Notes under the pieces: model-generated
Told to the model about the DNA's origin: nothing
Databases searched by the model: none
Seen by the model: only the letters and a program-made list of their open reading frames with translations
Made by a program: the position numbers and the translations under genes
Assembly: GCF_041821065.1 (NCBI RefSeq)
Contig: NZ_JBGUAX010000008.1
Coordinates: 248,001 to 312,000, forward strand
DNA: 64,000 bases
Source of the DNA: Egicoccus sp. AB-alg2
Lineage (GTDB): Bacteria > Actinomycetota > Nitriliruptoria > Nitriliruptorales > Nitriliruptoraceae
Reading direction: 5' to 3'
Shown here: piece by piece, positions 22,292 through 40,160 of the stretch
How the letters are laid out: every line of letters starts with the position of its first letter
Numbering within the stretch: position 1 is the first letter of the stretch

Positions 22292-22508
22292 CCGTGAAAC
22301 GCCGAGAACCGGGCGCGAAGGCCCGGTTCTCGTGTGTGCGCCGCCAGGGACTCGAACCCCGAACCTGCCGGTTAAGAGCGGGATCGAAGGCGTCCACCGC
22401 ACACCACGTTCGTCCAGGAAAGCCGCTCTGACCAGTGCAAACGCTCGGTTGGGGTCCACTGACGTCCACCGCAACCCACCGTGCGCGCTGGAGTTAGGGC
22501 GCAGATAG
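22292..22508 (-). repeat. Left direct repeat with tRNA-Lys(CUU) 3' half
   Basis: On the minus strand the core 22378-22337 reads as a tRNA from the anticodon loop (CTCTTAA, anticodon CUU) through the variable loop, T arm (GGTTCGAGTCC) and acceptor strand, without an encoded CCA. The 5' half is absent; instead, element sequence containing GCGGTGGACGCCTTCGAT precedes it. A terminator hairpin follows. The repeat continues to about 22508 (GGAGTTAGGGCGCAG). The same arrangement recurs at 35754-35969. Confidence 0.82.
22304..22331 (-). terminator. tRNA-type terminator hairpin, left copy
   Basis: GAGAACCGGGC pairs perfectly with GCCCGGTTCTC around a 6-base loop, directly after the tRNA 3' end. The right copy has a compensated stem change (GGGC/GCCC versus GGCC/GGCC), supporting a functional hairpin. 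Confidence 0.75.
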
Positions 22509-22719
22509 TCCTCACTTGTAGGACTGGTAAGCGGGAGACCACTGCGGGCCGCGACCGCCTGGGCCAGGCTGCTGGCCGCGCATAGCCGTGGACGAGGTTT
22601 CGGTGCATGAGAGGCGCGCAGCCTTCTCGTACCAGGAATTCGCCATGACGCTCCCCGTCTCAGCTGGAGAAACTTGGTTGGCCTGCTCCACGACGAGGCG
22701 ATTCTTGAGTGCCTGCAGG

Positions 22720-23697
22720 CTACTGTGCTGGTAATAGCGAAGCAGCTAGCGACCCCGAGATGGGAAGGCCCAGAAGCTCCTCGAGCCACGAGTACTGACC
22801 GCTCGGATTGCACTCCAGAAAGAAGAACTGGCCATCCTCGTCCTCGACGAGATCGAAGGCACCGTATCCCAGTTCACTGCGCCTCAGATACTCCACGCAG
22901 TACTCCAGGACAAGACTGGGGGGATCTTCCTTGGCAAATGTCACGTCATTACTTGTCTGCGATTGGCGCCAATCGACGCGCGACTTGCCGTTGGTATAGA
23001 TAGCCGCGGGGAAGGCCTCTTCCTTCACGGTGGTGATTCGCCACTCGCGCCTCTTCTCCAGATAGGGTTGATAGATGCCAGGGAACGGAGAGACTACTCC
23101 CTGCAGTGCGTTCCGCTGAGGGAGGGCAAGCAGAGTGGTCGGCATCGCCATGACGTGGTTCTGGTCGGCGAGCACCCCTCGCGCCATCTTGACGACCAGA
23201 TTCTGGGTCTCGGCTCCCATGAACTTCTCGATCATGGACCAGTCCGAGGAAACCATAGTTCTAGGGATTTCAAAGCCGACCTCACGCGCCAGCAGAAGTT
23301 GCTGGAACTTGCGCTCGGCTCTCCAGAGCTGCAGCGGCGAACTCAACCATATGGACTCTGGCAAGACCGACCACAGGGCACGATTTAGAGATGTCACCTC
23401 GTTGACATAGGTCATCTGTCGGGAAACATTTTCTTCAGCGCCTGGAACGCGGAAGCTATTCGGTTTCCAGTACCAGGCTGCGTCAATATCTCTCACGTCT
23501 ACAAGGACGCTGCCGGCCTGAATCGAAACAGTGCCCTGTTCCGTGATGAGTATGGAGAAACTGCGTGACGAACCGATGGCTATGTCGGTTAACCAGAGAA
23601 GGACGCGAGCGCCATGCTTTTCTAAGTGTGATACCACCCTGCCGTAAGAGTGCTCCTCGGCACTCGAACTGACAATCAATATCAACGGCTTCTTCAC
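22720..23697 (-). CDS. MvdC/MvdD/TgmB-like ATP-grasp peptide ligase (graspetide synthetase)
   Basis: About 325 aa. The N-terminus (KPLILIVSSSAEEHSYGRVV) and DIDAAWYWKPNSFRVP match the pre-ATP-grasp domain of graspetide ligases. The middle has AERKFQQLLLAREVGFEIPR and the nucleotide-site LVVKMARGVL. The C-terminus AFDLVEDEDGQFFFLECNPS then GQYSWLEELLGLPI carries the N-P-x-G-Q-[WY]-x-W-[IL]-E hallmark of this enzyme group, including the metal-binding Glu and Asn. Such enzymes use ATP to join Thr/Ser/Lys side chains to Asp/Glu in a ribosomal precursor. The GTG at 23697 is favoured; an ATG at 23754 adds 19 unlikely residues. A precursor candidate lies 134 bp upstream on the same strand. More AT-rich than the chromosome. 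Confidence 0.85.
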   Translation of the reverse strand: MKKPLILIVSSSAEEHSYGRVVSHLEKHGARVLLWLTDIAIGSSRSFSILITEQGTVSIQAGSVLVDVRDIDAAWYWKPNSFRVPGAEENVSRQMTYVNEVTSLNRALWSVLPESIWLSSPLQLWRAERKFQQLLLAREVGFEIPRTMVSSDWSMIEKFMGAETQNLVVKMARGVLADQNHVMAMPTTLLALPQRNALQGVVSPFPGIYQPYLEKRREWRITTVKEEAFPAAIYTNGKSRVDWRQSQTSNDVTFAKEDPPSLVLEYCVEYLRRSELGYGAFDLVEDEDGQFFFLECNPSGQYSWLEELLGLPISGSLAASLLPAQ

Positions 23698-23830
23698 ATG
23701 GCACCTAGGATGTGGATACCACCAATGACTATGGAACGAACGCAGCCATGCCAAGCGACCTGTGACTCAGGACAAAGTCCTCAGAGGGCTTGCGGGGCTA
23801 TTGGTCGGTCCCGGGGAGTTGGCATGCGGC

Positions 23831-24007
23831 TCACTGGTCATCGAAGTCAGTATTCTGAGGTGGTGTCGACGCGTTAGACATGTTGGGACCGACTGGTGCC
23901 AAGGAACTCGCGAAAACATCAAGCACCGTGAGCGTCCTGTCCGGCTTCAGGCTGCTTGCCGCGCTCTGGTTGGTCGATACCGGGTCAGGTGCGACGGTGT
24001 CGCTCAT
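23831..24007 (-). CDS. Candidate graspetide precursor peptide
   Basis: 58-aa peptide too short for routine calling. GGAGG lies seven bases before the ATG, a strong ribosome site in an otherwise poor region. The N-terminal half is leader-like (MSDTVAPDPVSTNQ), with a central hydrophobic stretch (RTLTVLDVFASSLAPVG). The C-terminal tail is rich in residues that graspetide ligases use: Ser/Thr donors in NASTPPQNT and Asp acceptors in DFDD. It lies just upstream of the ATP-grasp ligase on the same strand. I cannot match it to a named precursor family, so the assignment rests on position, ribosome site and composition. Confidence 0.6.
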   Translation of the reverse strand: MSDTVAPDPVSTNQSAASSLKPDRTLTVLDVFASSLAPVGPNMSNASTPPQNTDFDDQ

Positions 24008-24380
24008 GGATCGCCTCCGAGGCTGTCGTTGTTCGCAGTTTCAGAACCCATTCGGGCTTGATCCGCAAGCCAGCAGCACCACTCTACAGATAGGGCTAAT
24101 CGGCGACACAGGGATGGGCAGATCCCTGGGCTCCGCGGCATTCGATGTGCGTGAAGCGCGCGAGCATGTGCGGGTTCCTCTGCCCATCAGGCTGTCGCAC
24201 GGACGGAGCGAGCTTTACCGGCGCTTCGGAAGTTGAGGGGCGCGGTAGCCGGATGAGCTGCTGCTGAGGATGCTCAGAGAAGCACACGGACCCCGCGAGA
24301 GTGGAGGTGCTGAAGCCACCCACCCTGGGGATCCCTGTGCTCGTCGAGCCTACGTTGCTGTGCTACTAGTGTGTCTTGCT

Positions 24381-24767
24381 CTAACGCTCGATACGGGACC
24401 TCACAGCCTCCATGAGTTTTGTCGCGTGGGATGCGCCTGTGAGCGAGTGGTGGGCCCAGAGCGTGACCTCGCGGTGGCCCCCTCTTTCCCACACGTACAT
24501 ATGAACGGTGGATCCGTTTATGTGGGCGCCTTGTGCCTTCGGGACGGCGCAGCCGACGGCGAAGGTCGGCGGGTCGTCGTCCAGTGCGGCGAACACGGAG
24601 TCGTCCTGGGGTGTGTACCAGGTTAGCGTCTCGCCGCCCATGAGCTTTGCGGTGATTCCACCGATTATGGCGCTCGCGCCGCGGCCCTCCTTGATGCCGG
24701 TCTGGAAGCCGGCGCCGCATTCTTTCACGCTCAAGGACGTCCTGAACTCAATCTGCTTCTCGCCCAT
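24381..24767 (-). CDS. Conserved-looking soluble protein of unknown function
   Basis: 128 aa, with a balanced composition and good coding character: EFRTSLSVKECGAGFQTGIK, ASAIIGGITAKLMGG, then ALDDDPPTFAVGCAVPK and VHMYVWERGGHREVTLWAHH. The alternating hydrophobic pattern suggests a small beta-rich domain. There is no signal peptide. GAGGAG lies upstream of the ATG. It is upstream of, and co-directional with, the graspetide precursor candidate, but the 370-bp gap leaves their relation open. Confidence 0.6.
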   Translation of the reverse strand: MGEKQIEFRTSLSVKECGAGFQTGIKEGRGASAIIGGITAKLMGGETLTWYTPQDDSVFAALDDDPPTFAVGCAVPKAQGAHINGSTVHMYVWERGGHREVTLWAHHSLTGASHATKLMEAVRSRIER

Positions 24768-29642: not shown

Positions 29643-30890
29643 ATGTTGTTCCGAAGGCACGACACCCACCGCGCTGAGGACGACCAGCCCGCCCCGGACC
29701 AGTCCGAATTTACGGTCGGTCACCTCACCACCCACCTCCGCAGCCGCGGGATCCCCTTCGAGGACGAGCGGGTCTACGACGCCGAAGGCACGCTGCTGCC
29801 CCCGGCGGCCGGGACCTGGATCGAGCACACGGCTGGGCTTCTGCGTGGAGCGGCCGAAGCCGCCGTCGCGGCGCTTGCTGGCCCGAGGATCGAGGACATC
29901 GATCTGGTGGAGGCCGCTGGCCAGCAGGCGAGCTCGGATGCGCTCGTTCGCGACGTGCCCGAGCGGCGGGCCACGCTCAGCAAGGACATCAGCCAGGCCA
30001 AGAATGAGCTCGCCGAGATCGAGGCCGTCGCCGACCGGGCCCTCCCTGAGAAGCGGGCAAACTGGAACACCCCTGGGAAGCTCGTGATGATCGCCGCTGA
30101 TACCGCCGTGTTGGCGACGCCGCTGTACCTCACCGGCAGCCCCCTGGTCCTCGCGATGATCTACAGCGTCGGGATCGCGGTCGCCTCCGTGGTCGCCGGC
30201 GCCTACGTCGGCGGACAGGTCGGCCTGACCCTCGATCGGCACCGACGCGGCCCGCTCCCGGACGACGCGCCACTGTCCGTCGCTCACCTCTACGCCCCCC
30301 ACGGCGCGCGCTTCGATGCGAGTCTCGTAGGCCTGCTGGTCTTCGCGGGCGTGATCAGCCTCGCCCTGGCCGGTGCCGTCACGTTGAAGCTCGCTGGTGG
30401 CGGCGATCCCCTGCTCTACGCCCTGGGGGCTGCGATTCCCGCGGCCGTCACGCCTTGGGGGTCGGCTGCGCTGCAGGCGTGGAGCTCGAACGCCGCCCAC
30501 GAGACCTACCTCGACGTCAGCCAGAAGCTCGCCGAGCTCGAAGCCCGCGACGACGAGCTCTGCCAGCTCCAGGCCGCGGCCGCCAGTCACGCCGCCCGCT
30601 TGGCGGAGTTGCGCAGCATCGTCGGGCACAACGTTGCCGCCTCGGGCAGGTTCACCGAGGCGGAGGCGGACATCCGGCCGACGCAGCCGCGCATCTTCGG
30701 CTACGACCGGCTGCCGGACACTGCTGGGTCTACCGCGTCGCTGCCCAGGTGGCCGCAACGTGGGGGCGGTCTCCGACGGTGGGTCGACCTCCTCGACTTC
30801 GTGGACCAGACCCGCCGTCAGCCCTCGACACCTGCAGCCGCGACGACGGCGGCCCGCAACGGCCACGCGTCTGAGCCGCCCACTCCCTGA
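29643..30890 (+). CDS. Multi-pass membrane protein with flanking coiled coils
   Basis: 415 aa. A polar N-terminal domain is followed by a coiled coil at 95-135 (ATLSKDISQAKNELAEIEAV). Two hydrophobic hairpins come next: LVMIAADTAVLATPLYLTGS through VASVVAGAYVGG at 145-190, and LVGLLVFAGVISLALAGAVT through PAAVTPWGSAAL at 223-275. A second coiled coil follows at 285-340 (VSQKLAELEARDDELCQLQA), then a low-complexity tail. Cytoplasmic coiled coils on both sides suggest a scaffold. No family recognised. AAGGAG lies upstream of the ATG. Confidence 0.65.
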   Translation: MLFRRHDTHRAEDDQPAPDQSEFTVGHLTTHLRSRGIPFEDERVYDAEGTLLPPAAGTWIEHTAGLLRGAAEAAVAALAGPRIEDIDLVEAAGQQASSDALVRDVPERRATLSKDISQAKNELAEIEAVADRALPEKRANWNTPGKLVMIAADTAVLATPLYLTGSPLVLAMIYSVGIAVASVVAGAYVGGQVGLTLDRHRRGPLPDDAPLSVAHLYAPHGARFDASLVGLLVFAGVISLALAGAVTLKLAGGGDPLLYALGAAIPAAVTPWGSAALQAWSSNAAHETYLDVSQKLAELEARDDELCQLQAAAASHAARLAELRSIVGHNVAASGRFTEAEADIRPTQPRIFGYDRLPDTAGSTASLPRWPQRGGGLRRWVDLLDFVDQTRRQPSTPAAATTAARNGHASEPPTP

Positions 30891-35753: not shown

Positions 35754-35969
35754 CCGTGATACGCCGAGAACCGGCCACGATGGGCCGGTTCTCGTGTGTG
35801 CGCCGCCAGGGACTCGAACCCCGAACCTGCCGGTTAAGAGGGGGTCGAAGGCGTCCACCGCACACCACGTTCGTCCAGAAAGCCACTCTGACCAGTGCAA
35901 GCGCTCGGTCGGGGGTCCACTGATGTCCGCCGTCGTTCATCGAGTTCGCTGGAGTTAGGGCGCAGTTAG
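35754..35969 (-). repeat. Right direct repeat with tRNA-Lys(CUU) 3' half
   Basis: Same arrangement as the repeat at 22292-22508: tRNA core at 35840-35799 on the minus strand, terminator hairpin behind it, and the same element-type flank (GAAGGCGTCCACCGCACACC, GTTCGTCCAG, GACCAGTGCAA, GGAGTTAGGGCGCAG). The two copies differ at scattered positions and by small indels, so they are related but not recently duplicated. Confidence 0.82.
35766..35793 (-). terminator. tRNA-type terminator hairpin, right copy
   Basis: GAGAACCGGCC pairs with GGCCGGTTCTC around a 6-base loop. Stem bases covary with the left copy. Confidence 0.75.
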
Positions 35970-36019
35970 GGCACACCCTCCCTCGTTCATCGATCGGCGT
36001 CCGCACGCGGTGGTTTCGT

Positions 36020-36487: not shown

Positions 36488-38473
36488 CTACCAGTCGGCA
36501 GGGAGGGTTGTATCCTTGCCTTCACAGCATGGACAGTTCACCCAATATGCTGAACTAGAGTTCGCGTCCGGAACGTGGAAGCCCCGCCATCCAAGCTTAA
36601 TGAGTTCGTGCTTTGTCCCCGCACCGTTGCAGTGGCTGACGACCCAGAACTGACCGCACGGTATGCACTCGTATGGCCGTCCTTTCCCGTGCTGCTTGGG
36701 CGTGATCTCGCGACCGGTTACGCGCGAGAACGGGATCACTTCGGCGCCCGGTTGCCCACACGACCAGCATCGGCTGCGCAATCCGGCCTTGTACCCGAAG
36801 AGTATCCAGAAAAGTCGTGTTAGTTCTCGCCGTTCCTTATCGTCCGGATGTAAGCGAAGAGCACCGAAGTCGTGTTTCGGCCAGGCGTCGTGTACTTCTC
36901 TCGACGTTCGAACTTCGGGGTGGTCTCGGAGCTTCCGTCCTCCTGTTACGGTATACCGGCGGCCCGGCGTGGGGTGGACTATGAAGGATGCCTGAGCGAT
37001 GATGGCTTTCGACGATTCTGTGAGGTGAGACCGCCGGTACTTCGTGGCGGCGGTTCCTTCTAGAACAAGAAGGAACCACGAATCATCGCAGGCCCCGGCA
37101 TCTTCGGCGTACTTGCCGGGTGGGGGAAGCTGGTAAGCGTGGTATTTCGCGTCGATAATGCACCGTATCATGCCCTCGTCGGTGGTGATGTCGAGGACTA
37201 TGTCCGGACGCATGCGCCGCTCGTCCGCAGTCGGGTAGGTGAGCTCGAGCCAAGGTTCATACCAAAGAGATACGCGCACCCCATAGGTATCTTGGAGCTG
37301 AATGGGGGGGGCAGACCGCATGCGTTCCGGTTCGAAAAGGTCAGCGTGGTCCATCCCGCGACTCACGACTGCGAATCCACGTTTCAACAGTCCGACGTAG
37401 ACGGACCAGAGCACCCACCACTCGTACATCTCGCTCGTATGGCGAAGCGAAGCACCTTCTGGCAGAGACCTCTCCCACCCGGGTTTGATGTAAGGGACAA
37501 CCGCGCGATACTCCCGCAGCGCCTTTCTAAGTAGTGCGCCTCTCGGATTGAAGATCCAATCGTTGGTCTCGCGCGGTGGCCGGACGGTCTCCTTGTAGGG
37601 GCCGAGCTTCGTAAGCACAGACTTGATGTCGCCTAGGTCTCCTCGCGCCGTGGATGTGTCGCGCGGTTCCTCGGACCCCCGTATCGCGTTTTTGAAGACG
37701 CGAGCTTCAGCGGCGAACTCCTGGAAGGCACTCTCCCGTTGTTCAGCGGCTCGCTGTTGGCGGTTCACCAGTTCCGTAAGGGCGCGCTCCAGTCGGTGGT
37801 GCTCACGAGCGACGATGGTGCAGATGTGGTCGATCCACTCCGTGACGGGCGAACTAGGCATCTCGGCCAGACGCGTGACCCGTACGTGGCGATGGCCAGG
37901 ACGGCGCGCGATGGCGCGTGCCATCCGAGCGTCAGTGGCTCCCCTGTCAGTGGGCACAACGGCGGTCTGTCGCCCGAAACGTCTCGCCGCCGACCGGCGG
38001 ACTTCACCAGCATGCTGGCCTAGCGCAGTGGCCAGCTTCGCCAGCGCTGCCACCTGCAGCGAGACCGCGTCGCCACGTGTACGAGGCCGCTGCAGGTCTC
38101 GCGCCCCTACGCGGTAGACCGATGCGTCGAGTGCCAGCCGACCGAGATCTTCGATCATCGCGTGATAGTCGTCGAGGGGCAGTTGCGAGGCCGCGACGAG
38201 AACCGCCGGAGCTAACGGCGGTCCCTCACGAGAGGCGTGCAGGGAGACCCAGCCAGCAGCTGGAGGACCGCCGCGTGGAAGCTGCCACCAACGGCGCTCC
38301 GGGTTGTATTCGAGTTCCCGCCAGACATCGCCGTCGCGCACCCAGGGGGGTGACCTATCAAGCTCGTCTTCTCGACGTACGCCCCACTGTCGGTACTGGG
38401 ACGGGATCTCAACGAAACCCTCAGGACTGAGCTCCAGCGGCCGATCGCTCAAGCAGACCTGAACTTCTTCCAC
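36488..38473 (-). CDS. McrC-like DUF2357 nuclease with C-terminal zinc ribbon
   Basis: 661 aa. A DUF2357-type N-terminal region is followed near residues 415-445 by a PD-(D/E)xK nuclease: RPDIVLDITTDEGMIRCIID then AKYHAYQLPPPGKYAEDAGA, with Asp of the IVLD strand and D-A-K of the catalytic core. Residues 565-625 carry several CxxC pairs (CWSCGQPG, CIPCGQFW, CPCCEG), a zinc-binding tail not present in McrC itself. With the AAA gene immediately upstream it forms a McrBC-like two-gene system cutting modified or foreign DNA. The GTG start lies one base after the AAA gene's stop. More AT-rich than the backbone. Confidence 0.78.
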   Translation of the reverse strand: MEEVQVCLSDRPLELSPEGFVEIPSQYRQWGVRREDELDRSPPWVRDGDVWRELEYNPERRWWQLPRGGPPAAGWVSLHASREGPPLAPAVLVAASQLPLDDYHAMIEDLGRLALDASVYRVGARDLQRPRTRGDAVSLQVAALAKLATALGQHAGEVRRSAARRFGRQTAVVPTDRGATDARMARAIARRPGHRHVRVTRLAEMPSSPVTEWIDHICTIVAREHHRLERALTELVNRQQRAAEQRESAFQEFAAEARVFKNAIRGSEEPRDTSTARGDLGDIKSVLTKLGPYKETVRPPRETNDWIFNPRGALLRKALREYRAVVPYIKPGWERSLPEGASLRHTSEMYEWWVLWSVYVGLLKRGFAVVSRGMDHADLFEPERMRSAPPIQLQDTYGVRVSLWYEPWLELTYPTADERRMRPDIVLDITTDEGMIRCIIDAKYHAYQLPPPGKYAEDAGACDDSWFLLVLEGTAATKYRRSHLTESSKAIIAQASFIVHPTPGRRYTVTGGRKLRDHPEVRTSREVHDAWPKHDFGALRLHPDDKERRELTRLFWILFGYKAGLRSRCWSCGQPGAEVIPFSRVTGREITPKQHGKGRPYECIPCGQFWVVSHCNGAGTKHELIKLGWRGFHVPDANSSSAYWVNCPCCEGKDTTLPADW

Positions 38474-38474
38474 G

Positions 38475-40160
38475 TCAGTTCAGCCAAGACACTGGTCGCA
38501 TGCGCCTCTCTGCTCGGCTCTCAAGCGCTTCGAGTTCCTTACCAAGGCTTGTTAGCTTCCAATCGTTCTTGGCCTTCTTCGCAACGTCGCCTACGGCGCT
38601 GCTGCCAGGTTCGGCTCTGACAGCGGGTAGAAGCCTCATTATGAGGACGTCTTCGACCGTCACTGCTGCCGGAGCCGGGATGTTCGGAAGCACATGGACC
38701 GCTGCGCGCAGAGCGTTATAGAGCCTACGGCTCGGATAGACGTCCACCTGCTCAAGAAGTGAGCTCCCCTCCTTACCGGTGATTATCCTCCAAACCCGTT
38801 CAACCTCTTCGACGACCGCTGCCTCGGAGGGTCGAACGGCGTCTCCCCAAGGCGGCTCTTGAGCGCTCGGTTGCTGGACGTCACCGGCGACCGGCGGGAA
38901 AACAGCTGCTGGCGGGAGGTGCTCGACGCGGAGGCCCAGGGATCGGTCGAGTACCTTCGGTGAGAGTTCCTTCGTGGTGGCGTCGTCGTTCAAGGTTCCC
39001 ATCAAGCACAAAGACTTCGGGAGTAGAACGGTCTCGCGAACACGCTCCCGCAGAACCCGCAGCGCCGTCGATTCGGCGCTTCCCGCTCCAGCTGCGAGGG
39101 CCCTATCTTCCAGGTGTCGTAGCTGCTCCGGGCTATAGAGACGTATCCTGCCATCTTCCCGGGATTGCTTTGAGCGTTCGAACTCGCCTAAGACGTCCGC
39201 CGCGTAGTTCTCTATCCGAGCGATGTTGAGTTCATCAAGCACCACAATCTGCGTAGGGACGCCTTTTCTATCCCCTCTTAAGAGTATGTCGAGAAAATCA
39301 GTCGTGCTGTAGATCGCTTGACCTGGCATGAGGAAACCGAGCAGGTCTGCCGTGTCGAGCCACTCCGGACGAACAGCGATCATCTCCGCTGAGCGCCCCG
39401 TCAGTCCGTTCGAGAGCGCATTCGCGAGAGTGGACTTCCCCGACCCTGGCGGACCTCCGAACAGTAGAAGCTGGCCAGTCAATCGTGCAATGAGAGTGCC
39501 GATTGTTGCACGACGTAGCAGGGCCGGATCGAAGTCCGACTTGAGAGTTGCTGACGAGGAAAACACCTTCTCCAGCGGGGAGTCGGACACGACCTCATGC
39601 GATGAGAACGTGATGACGTTTTGTTCCTGGTTTCGTAGACCGAGGAGTTCTACGACTCGCTTCGCTTCAGGGGACTCCACGGCTTCGATCAACTCGTTGA
39701 GGCGCGCCTCATGGGCCCGCTGCTCGGAGATGAGGTCACGCAGTTCCGACCGGTCCTCCGCAATCTTCTTCGACTGTGCGGCGAGTTCTTCCTGCTGACC
39801 GTGGTACGTCGCCTCGAGCAAGGCCTTGCTGTCCTTGAGTGCAGATCGCACTTCCTCGAGGGCCTCCTTGACCGCTGTGTCAACGACCCCAAAGGACGCC
39901 TCGAGGTTGACCCGAGCGAGAAGGAAGTCTTCCCAGCTAGACCCGGGAACCCACTGGCCCTGACCCCGTGAATAGCCCTTGGCTGGCGGAACCAACCCTC
40001 TAGCGAGTCCGTACTGGCCCTTTTCCAGCGACTCGACCCTGCCGACGATGAACTCGTCGTACTCAGCGCCGTCCGCTAAGCGGATAGTGACCGGCGACCT
40101 CACGATGCAACTGTCCTTGAGGACCTGCTCCACCCAGACGGGCGCCTCAATATCGGACAT
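38475..40160 (-). CDS. McrB-like AAA+ ATPase with N-terminal coiled coil
   Basis: 561 aa. Residues 90-190 form a coiled coil (KEALEEVRSALKDSKALLEA, then AQSKKIAEDRSELRDLISEQ). The AAA+ domain starts near residue 230: Walker A GGPPGSGKSTLANALSNGLT, Walker B IVVLDELNIARIENYAADVL, and sensor-like LMGTLNDDATTKELSPKVLD followed by an Arg finger RS-LGLRVE. This matches the McrB/MoxR-type ATPases that translocate DNA or remodel a partner nuclease. Its partner is the DUF2357 nuclease immediately downstream. The N-terminus may sense the target but carries no recognised EVE/YTH domain. Confidence 0.8.
   Translation of the reverse strand: MSDIEAPVWVEQVLKDSCIVRSPVTIRLADGAEYDEFIVGRVESLEKGQYGLARGLVPPAKGYSRGQGQWVPGSSWEDFLLARVNLEASFGVVDTAVKEALEEVRSALKDSKALLEATYHGQQEELAAQSKKIAEDRSELRDLISEQRAHEARLNELIEAVESPEAKRVVELLGLRNQEQNVITFSSHEVVSDSPLEKVFSSSATLKSDFDPALLRRATIGTLIARLTGQLLLFGGPPGSGKSTLANALSNGLTGRSAEMIAVRPEWLDTADLLGFLMPGQAIYSTTDFLDILLRGDRKGVPTQIVVLDELNIARIENYAADVLGEFERSKQSREDGRIRLYSPEQLRHLEDRALAAGAGSAESTALRVLRERVRETVLLPKSLCLMGTLNDDATTKELSPKVLDRSLGLRVEHLPPAAVFPPVAGDVQQPSAQEPPWGDAVRPSEAAVVEEVERVWRIITGKEGSSLLEQVDVYPSRRLYNALRAAVHVLPNIPAPAAVTVEDVLIMRLLPAVRAEPGSSAVGDVAKKAKNDWKLTSLGKELEALESRAERRMRPVSWLN

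Follow-up and report, generated by a model that had tools for sequence, protein, structure and literature searches.

The window, a 64,000-nucleotide stretch of an actinobacterial genome, carries on its reverse strand a predicted ATP-grasp ligase gene and, a short distance upstream, an uncalled frame of 58 codons, which raises the question of whether the two form a graspetide cassette and, if so, where that cassette came from. The best explanation, to which we assign a probability of roughly 85%, is a minimal two-gene graspetide cassette of a Saccharibacteria-type family that was probably gained horizontally. Loci outside the window are cited below by L numbers.

The ligase and its upstream frame

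The ligase gene (22720–23697, reverse strand) encodes 325 aa from a GTG start at 23697 that yields MKKPLILI, where the closest homologue has MKKPILI (N-termini MKKPLILIVSSSAEEHSYG and MKKPILIASASFDEHAYG, respectively); the open reading frame and its ECNPSGQYSWLEELLGLPI motif were both found again when the sequence was re-read. The best NCBIfam matches were all graspetide maturases (TIGR04187, E 5.3e-48; TIGR04185, 3.9e-39; TIGR04184, 2.7e-36), with bit scores that fall below the curated cut-offs of the MvdC, MvdD, and GRASP_SAV_5884 equivalogs (134.6/425, 125.3/475, and 163.8/350), as do those of a Saccharibacterial relative's ligase. Sequence matches in the PDB (9bou, 5ig8, 5ig9, 7mgv, and 7m4s; E 2e-22 to 3e-19) comprise PruB, MdnB, MdnC, CdnC, and AMdnB. 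An AlphaFold model built from 22 aligned homologues (pLDDT 91.5, pTM 0.90) was placed by Foldseek nearest to MdnC, AMdnB, CdnC, MdnB, PruB, and PsnB, all of which outranked RimK and the D-Ala ligases, and residues K130, K170, R220, D242, R244, D282, E295, and N297, among which are the ATP-grasp lysine and acidic residues, are invariant across the 22 homologues. Profiles, PDB sequence matches, and the predicted fold all identify the ligase as a graspetide synthetase (ATP-grasp macrocyclase) of the MvdC/MvdD/TgmB type. The initial annotation had named it as such, and this stands, with the qualification that its closest kin are Saccharibacterial enzymes and not TgmB.

The 58-aa frame (MSDTVAPDPVSTNQSAASSLKPDRTLTVLDVFASSLAPVGPNMSNASTPPQNTDFDDQ; 23831–24007, reverse strand) is present as first claimed, 133 bases upstream of the ligase and on the same strand, and the GGAGG ribosome-binding site ahead of its ATG (24014–24018, reverse strand) is also there, at a spacing of six bases and not the seven originally given. 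Similar peptides lie directly upstream of the closest ligases: MEELLSSERPSTSAQSIEGLGKITVLEALAEATEMVDISRSNASTVPAGDADDQ at L032, MATETLILGDREKVELITEEAAFLGKKTVLEALATDMPFIDETMSNMSTNWNNTDASDQ at L133, ...LGRITILEALA...RCTPDGTGVDFDD at L139, ...TVFEKLAQD... at L150, L134, and L135, ...LGRTVLQSLAEA... at L033, and ...VGKTALELLAQ... at L034, the stretch of the window peptide compared with them being ...RTLTVLDVFASSLAPVGPNMSNASTPPQNTDFDDQ. The alignment of the window and L032 peptides scored 59 against a maximum of 44 over 3000 shuffles. A Saccharibacterial-only precursor profile, made from the peptides of L132 (identical to that of L032), L133, and L139 with the window left out, placed the 58-aa frame at the head of all 1157 frames in the window, with an E of 1.8e-5 against 5.3 for the runner-up, and in the whole genome the same frame was again the top match, yet with an E of only 0.004. 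None of the known precursor models matches the window peptide, including TIGR04186 (TgmA/GRASP_targ), for which a Streptomyces control peptide gave E 4.7e-12, and a tblastn-style search with the peptide in 396 genomes of the phylum returned noise only (best E 0.012). The short frames upstream of the ligase homologues were examined for a different precursor, and this attempt at refutation failed, as L032 and L133 carry the same leader and core. Its conservation ahead of the closest ligases marks the 58-aa frame, on this comparative evidence, as a real precursor gene.

These data bear on whether the ligase instead acts on another substrate, by RimK-like addition of amino acids or on a protein encoded elsewhere, with the 58-aa frame a chance ORF. 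A RimK-family model does match the ligase weakly (TIGR00768, E 4.7e-5) and RimK structures do occur in the Foldseek list, but they stand behind all graspetide synthetases there and are outranked by them in sequence too, and the frame is kept upstream of the closest homologues with leader and core in common; we consider this reading very improbable.

Leader, core, and proposed rings

The leader of the window peptide contains the motif TVLDVFA (residues 27–33; 23909–23929, reverse strand), a proposed synthetase-binding helix that is shared in the clade of related ligases. Its general form, T-[VITA]-[LF]-x-x-[LF]-[AGT], was present in an upstream ORF at 10 of the 11 clade loci and at 2 of 125 other graspetide-ligase loci, and a narrower form at 8/11 and 0/125, respectively; the within-clade counts are partly circular since the clade itself supplied the motif, and the tests are the 125 other loci and the window. 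The motif is rare in shuffled sequences. The Phhx(1,2)h type of leader, which PMC8939145 reports for many graspetides, occurred at 46 of the 125 other loci and at none of the 11 clade loci, and the window peptide lacks it as well; we infer that a Thr opens the leader helix where Pro otherwise stands.

The predicted core, SNASTPPQNTDFDDQ, occupies residues 44–58 (23834–23878, reverse strand), with S44, S47, and T48 (and T53) as candidate donors and D54 and D57 (and D56) as candidate acceptors; the assignment of rings to these residues is conjectural. The two closest relatives end in SNASTVPAG-DADDQ (L032) and SNMSTNWNNTDASDQ (L133), so that S-x-x-S-T-x(4,5)-D-x-x-D is common to all three: the donors S44, S47, and T48 and the acceptors D54 and D57 are kept in both, as expected of a graspetide core. 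L139 retains T48, D54, and D57 but carries M and C at the positions of S44 and S47, and D56 and T53 are absent from some relatives' peptides.

According to PMC13097080, graspetide synthetases phosphorylate an Asp or Glu carboxylate, which the side chain of a Ser, Thr, or Lys then attacks. This chemistry, together with the nested Thr-Asp esters of fuscimiditide (PMC12291112), leads us to propose for the window peptide a two-ring ester hairpin with T48 and either S44 or S47 as donors and D54 and D57 as acceptors. The TVLDVFA helix would provide the precursor's contact with the ATP-grasp synthetase, which would phosphorylate D54 and D57 at their side-chain carboxylates; the hydroxyl of T48 or S47 would then attack D54 to close an inner ring and that of S44 or S47 would attack D57 to close an outer one. 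The predicted product is a bicyclic hairpin of nested omega-ester rings formed with the loss of about two waters.

Among characterized systems, fuscimiditide/graspimiditide (ThfA-ThfB), a nested stem-loop with two Thr-Asp esters, is the model for this proposal (PMC12291112); it differs in that the loop is shorter in the window peptide and that no isoaspartyl methyltransferase was recognized beside the window cassette. The microviridin enzymes MdnC and MdnB (5ig9 and 5ig8; TIGR04184/04185) share their fold and catalytic core with the window ligase, whereas the leader of MdnA is of the PFFARFL type, an instance of Phhx(1,2)h (PMC8939145), and the window peptide has Thr at the place of the Pro and no such motif. 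The prunipeptin-type TgmA/TgmB pairs of Streptomyces (PruB, 9bou; TIGR04186/TIGR04187) come from the same phylum as the window and likewise have a precursor directly upstream whose C-terminus is rich in Ser/Thr and Asp and finishes in TxFDD, although their leader is unrelated, a match to TIGR04186 is found in theirs only, and their ligases are about 25–33% identical to the window's. The resemblance of their tail (TTTSTAGSKTHFDD) to the window core was considered as the main kinship and rejected on the leader mismatch and the ligase identities. The uncharacterized Saccharibacterial loci (L032/L132, L133, L139, L150/L134/L135, L033, and L034) resemble the window cassette more closely: a small ORF whose leader follows the pattern T-h-[LF]-x-x-[LF]-A lies upstream of the ligase, the ligases of the main loci are 34–45% identical to the window's, and the core SNxST...DxxDQ is common to L032 and L133; they differ in host phylum, in GC, and, for the distant members, in core sequence.

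The window peptide is placed in a new precursor family within a known natural-product class and is not a new kind of system. No paper combining Saccharibacteria and graspetide was found among the open-access papers searched, and PMC8939145 and PMC13097080 mention candidate phyla in their main texts and not the window family. A precursor can now be assigned to a synthetase clade for which no described one was found, a simple leader motif could locate more such peptides where short genes may go uncalled, and the function of Saccharibacterial graspetides is opened to direct experiment in a common expression host.

Saccharibacterial relatives and probable transfer between phyla

The closest ligases are all from Saccharibacteria. 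The best 80 loci of an alignment-based scan of genome contigs included L032 (45% identity), L033 (36%), L045 (35%), and L034 (34%), of which L033 and L045 bear Saccharibacterial names; FolD assigns the genomes of L032 and L034 to Saccharibacteria as well, the protein of L032 being 66% identical to that of the L034 genome, 64% to that of a named complete Saccharibacterial genome, and 36% to that of an actinobacterium. Among 393 genomes of the Saccharibacterial class, further ligases were found at L133 (41%), L150 and L135 (40%), L134 (39%), L138 (37%), L139 (35%), and others. Single-sequence scans of the genome-contig and viral-contig collections gave no relatives. Within the window's own class, 2 of 66 genomes held any ligase homologue, one of them the window genome and the other with a ligase 27% identical; in 396 genomes of the phylum the homologues were 25–35% identical, and none above 35% was among the matches listed for either set. 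The ligase of L009, from the same phylum, appeared by eye near-identical to PruB of Streptomyces coelicolor (9bou), which marks the window's host as an actinobacterium.

In an earlier quick tree the window ligase joined a Saccharibacterial clade with an SH-aLRT of 100, and in a more careful one it fell in a 12-row clade, otherwise wholly Saccharibacterial, with support of 100/100, its position inside that clade being unsettled. The position of the ligase in this fully supported clade suggests that the cassette crossed between Saccharibacteria and actinobacteria. The cassette has a GC of 56.5%, against 69.4% for the window, as the claim of an AT-richer region had anticipated, and 37–46% for the Saccharibacterial loci; this intermediate GC and the tree together favour this actinobacterium as the recipient.

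The same GC would also suit a ligase family that was ancestral in both phyla or that reached both from a third, unsampled source, as would its patchiness in Saccharibacteria (18 of the 393 genomes) and the presence of only one actinobacterial member in the clade. Against this history, which we hold to be possible though unlikely, nothing comparable was seen in the 396 actinobacterial genomes or the best 80 genome-contig loci, the remainder of the clade is Saccharibacterial throughout, and vertical descent from a shared ancestor would call for a very large number of losses.

Saccharibacteria are tiny bacteria, some of which live as epibionts on actinobacteria. For a transfer into this actinobacterium, contact between the phyla is plausible given that Saccharibacteria are known to use actinobacteria as hosts (PMC10031880), and a natural-product cassette here links two phyla that include known epibiont–host pairs. 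It is a distinctly speculative idea, and one we rate as improbable, that Thr-leader graspetides are a tool of this relationship, which the epibiont would produce, perhaps to counter competitors or host proteases, and that the cassette was captured here.

Several other loci came to light in these searches. The ligase of Labedaea rhizosphaerae (L036:4001–4933), with a small ORF upstream (MQQIVPFMAALA...; L036:3846–3992), groups with Saccharibacterial ligases in a five-row group (100/95) that lies in a Saccharibacteria-rich clade separate from the window's and is possibly a second cross-phylum exchange. An unverified and unannotated 16-kb faecal record, 'Bacteriophage sp.' (MT835913.1; L186), encodes a 35% identical ligase of graspetide type and, upstream of it, an ORF with two core-like LETRS/LQTRS...DD repeats. 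In another actinobacterium, L023, two overlapping tandem small ORFs (L023:866–1048 and L023:1026–1208) with related ET[NS]LT..xETVD cores precede a highly divergent ATP-grasp ligase gene, the first of them having no NCBIfam match; they were rejected as kin of the window peptide, with a leader score of 39 that was reached in 90 of 3000 shuffles and a ligase that is very distant. At L005 (reverse strand), a 193-aa ORF upstream of the ligase with repeated T-rich and E/D-rich stretches is likely a multi-core graspetide precursor.

Genomic setting

The cassette adjoins the first of two direct repeats (22292–22515 and 35754–35976) of about 220 bp each and 13.46 kb apart, both of which hold a 3' part of tRNA-Lys(CTT) (22337–22365 and 35799–35827, reverse strand), a hairpin, and related flanks. 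The two tRNA fragments are co-oriented and neither adjoins an intact tRNA-Lys, the intact tRNA-Lys(CTT) being on another contig (L160:911–985). The region had been described as an integrated element; the tRNA-Lys-fragment direct repeats fit that description, and no integrase was found among ten Pfam-scanned proteins across the repeat-bounded stretch, for which reason we call the stretch only a probable island. No synteny with relatives that would show an empty site was found. Upstream of the precursor, a 128-aa ORF (24381–24767, reverse strand) has a GC3 of 0.81 against 0.68 for the cassette, and no significant NCBIfam, Pfam, or PADLOC family, plasmid match, or relative was found for it in the sets searched; its membership of the cassette is uncertain. 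An Rfam search returned nothing.

The neighbourhood also bears on whether the peptide, though a true precursor, belongs to a decaying remnant that lacks protease, transporter, and immunity and whose product is lost. No protease, transporter, or other export or maturation gene was recognized beside the cassette, and its flanking repeats are tRNA fragments with no recognized integrase, as such decay might leave; yet both ORFs are intact, the ribosome-binding site is good, the catalytic residues are conserved, and minimal graspetide clusters of two genes have precedents (groups 27, 28, and 35 in PMC13097080), all of which make decay an unlikely account and agree with a minimal two-gene cassette.

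Two further features of the window were noted. ARAGORN calls a 96-base tRNA-His (29872–29967, forward strand) within a 415-aa ORF, a call that is probably spurious given the normal tRNA-His beside tRNA-Lys in L160. Past the second repeat (36488–40160, reverse strand), a PD-(D/E)XK nuclease-like gene and an AAA ATPase gene match the PADLOC candidate PDC-M26B/M26A (E 4e-6 and 3.7e-29) and form a probable defence module.
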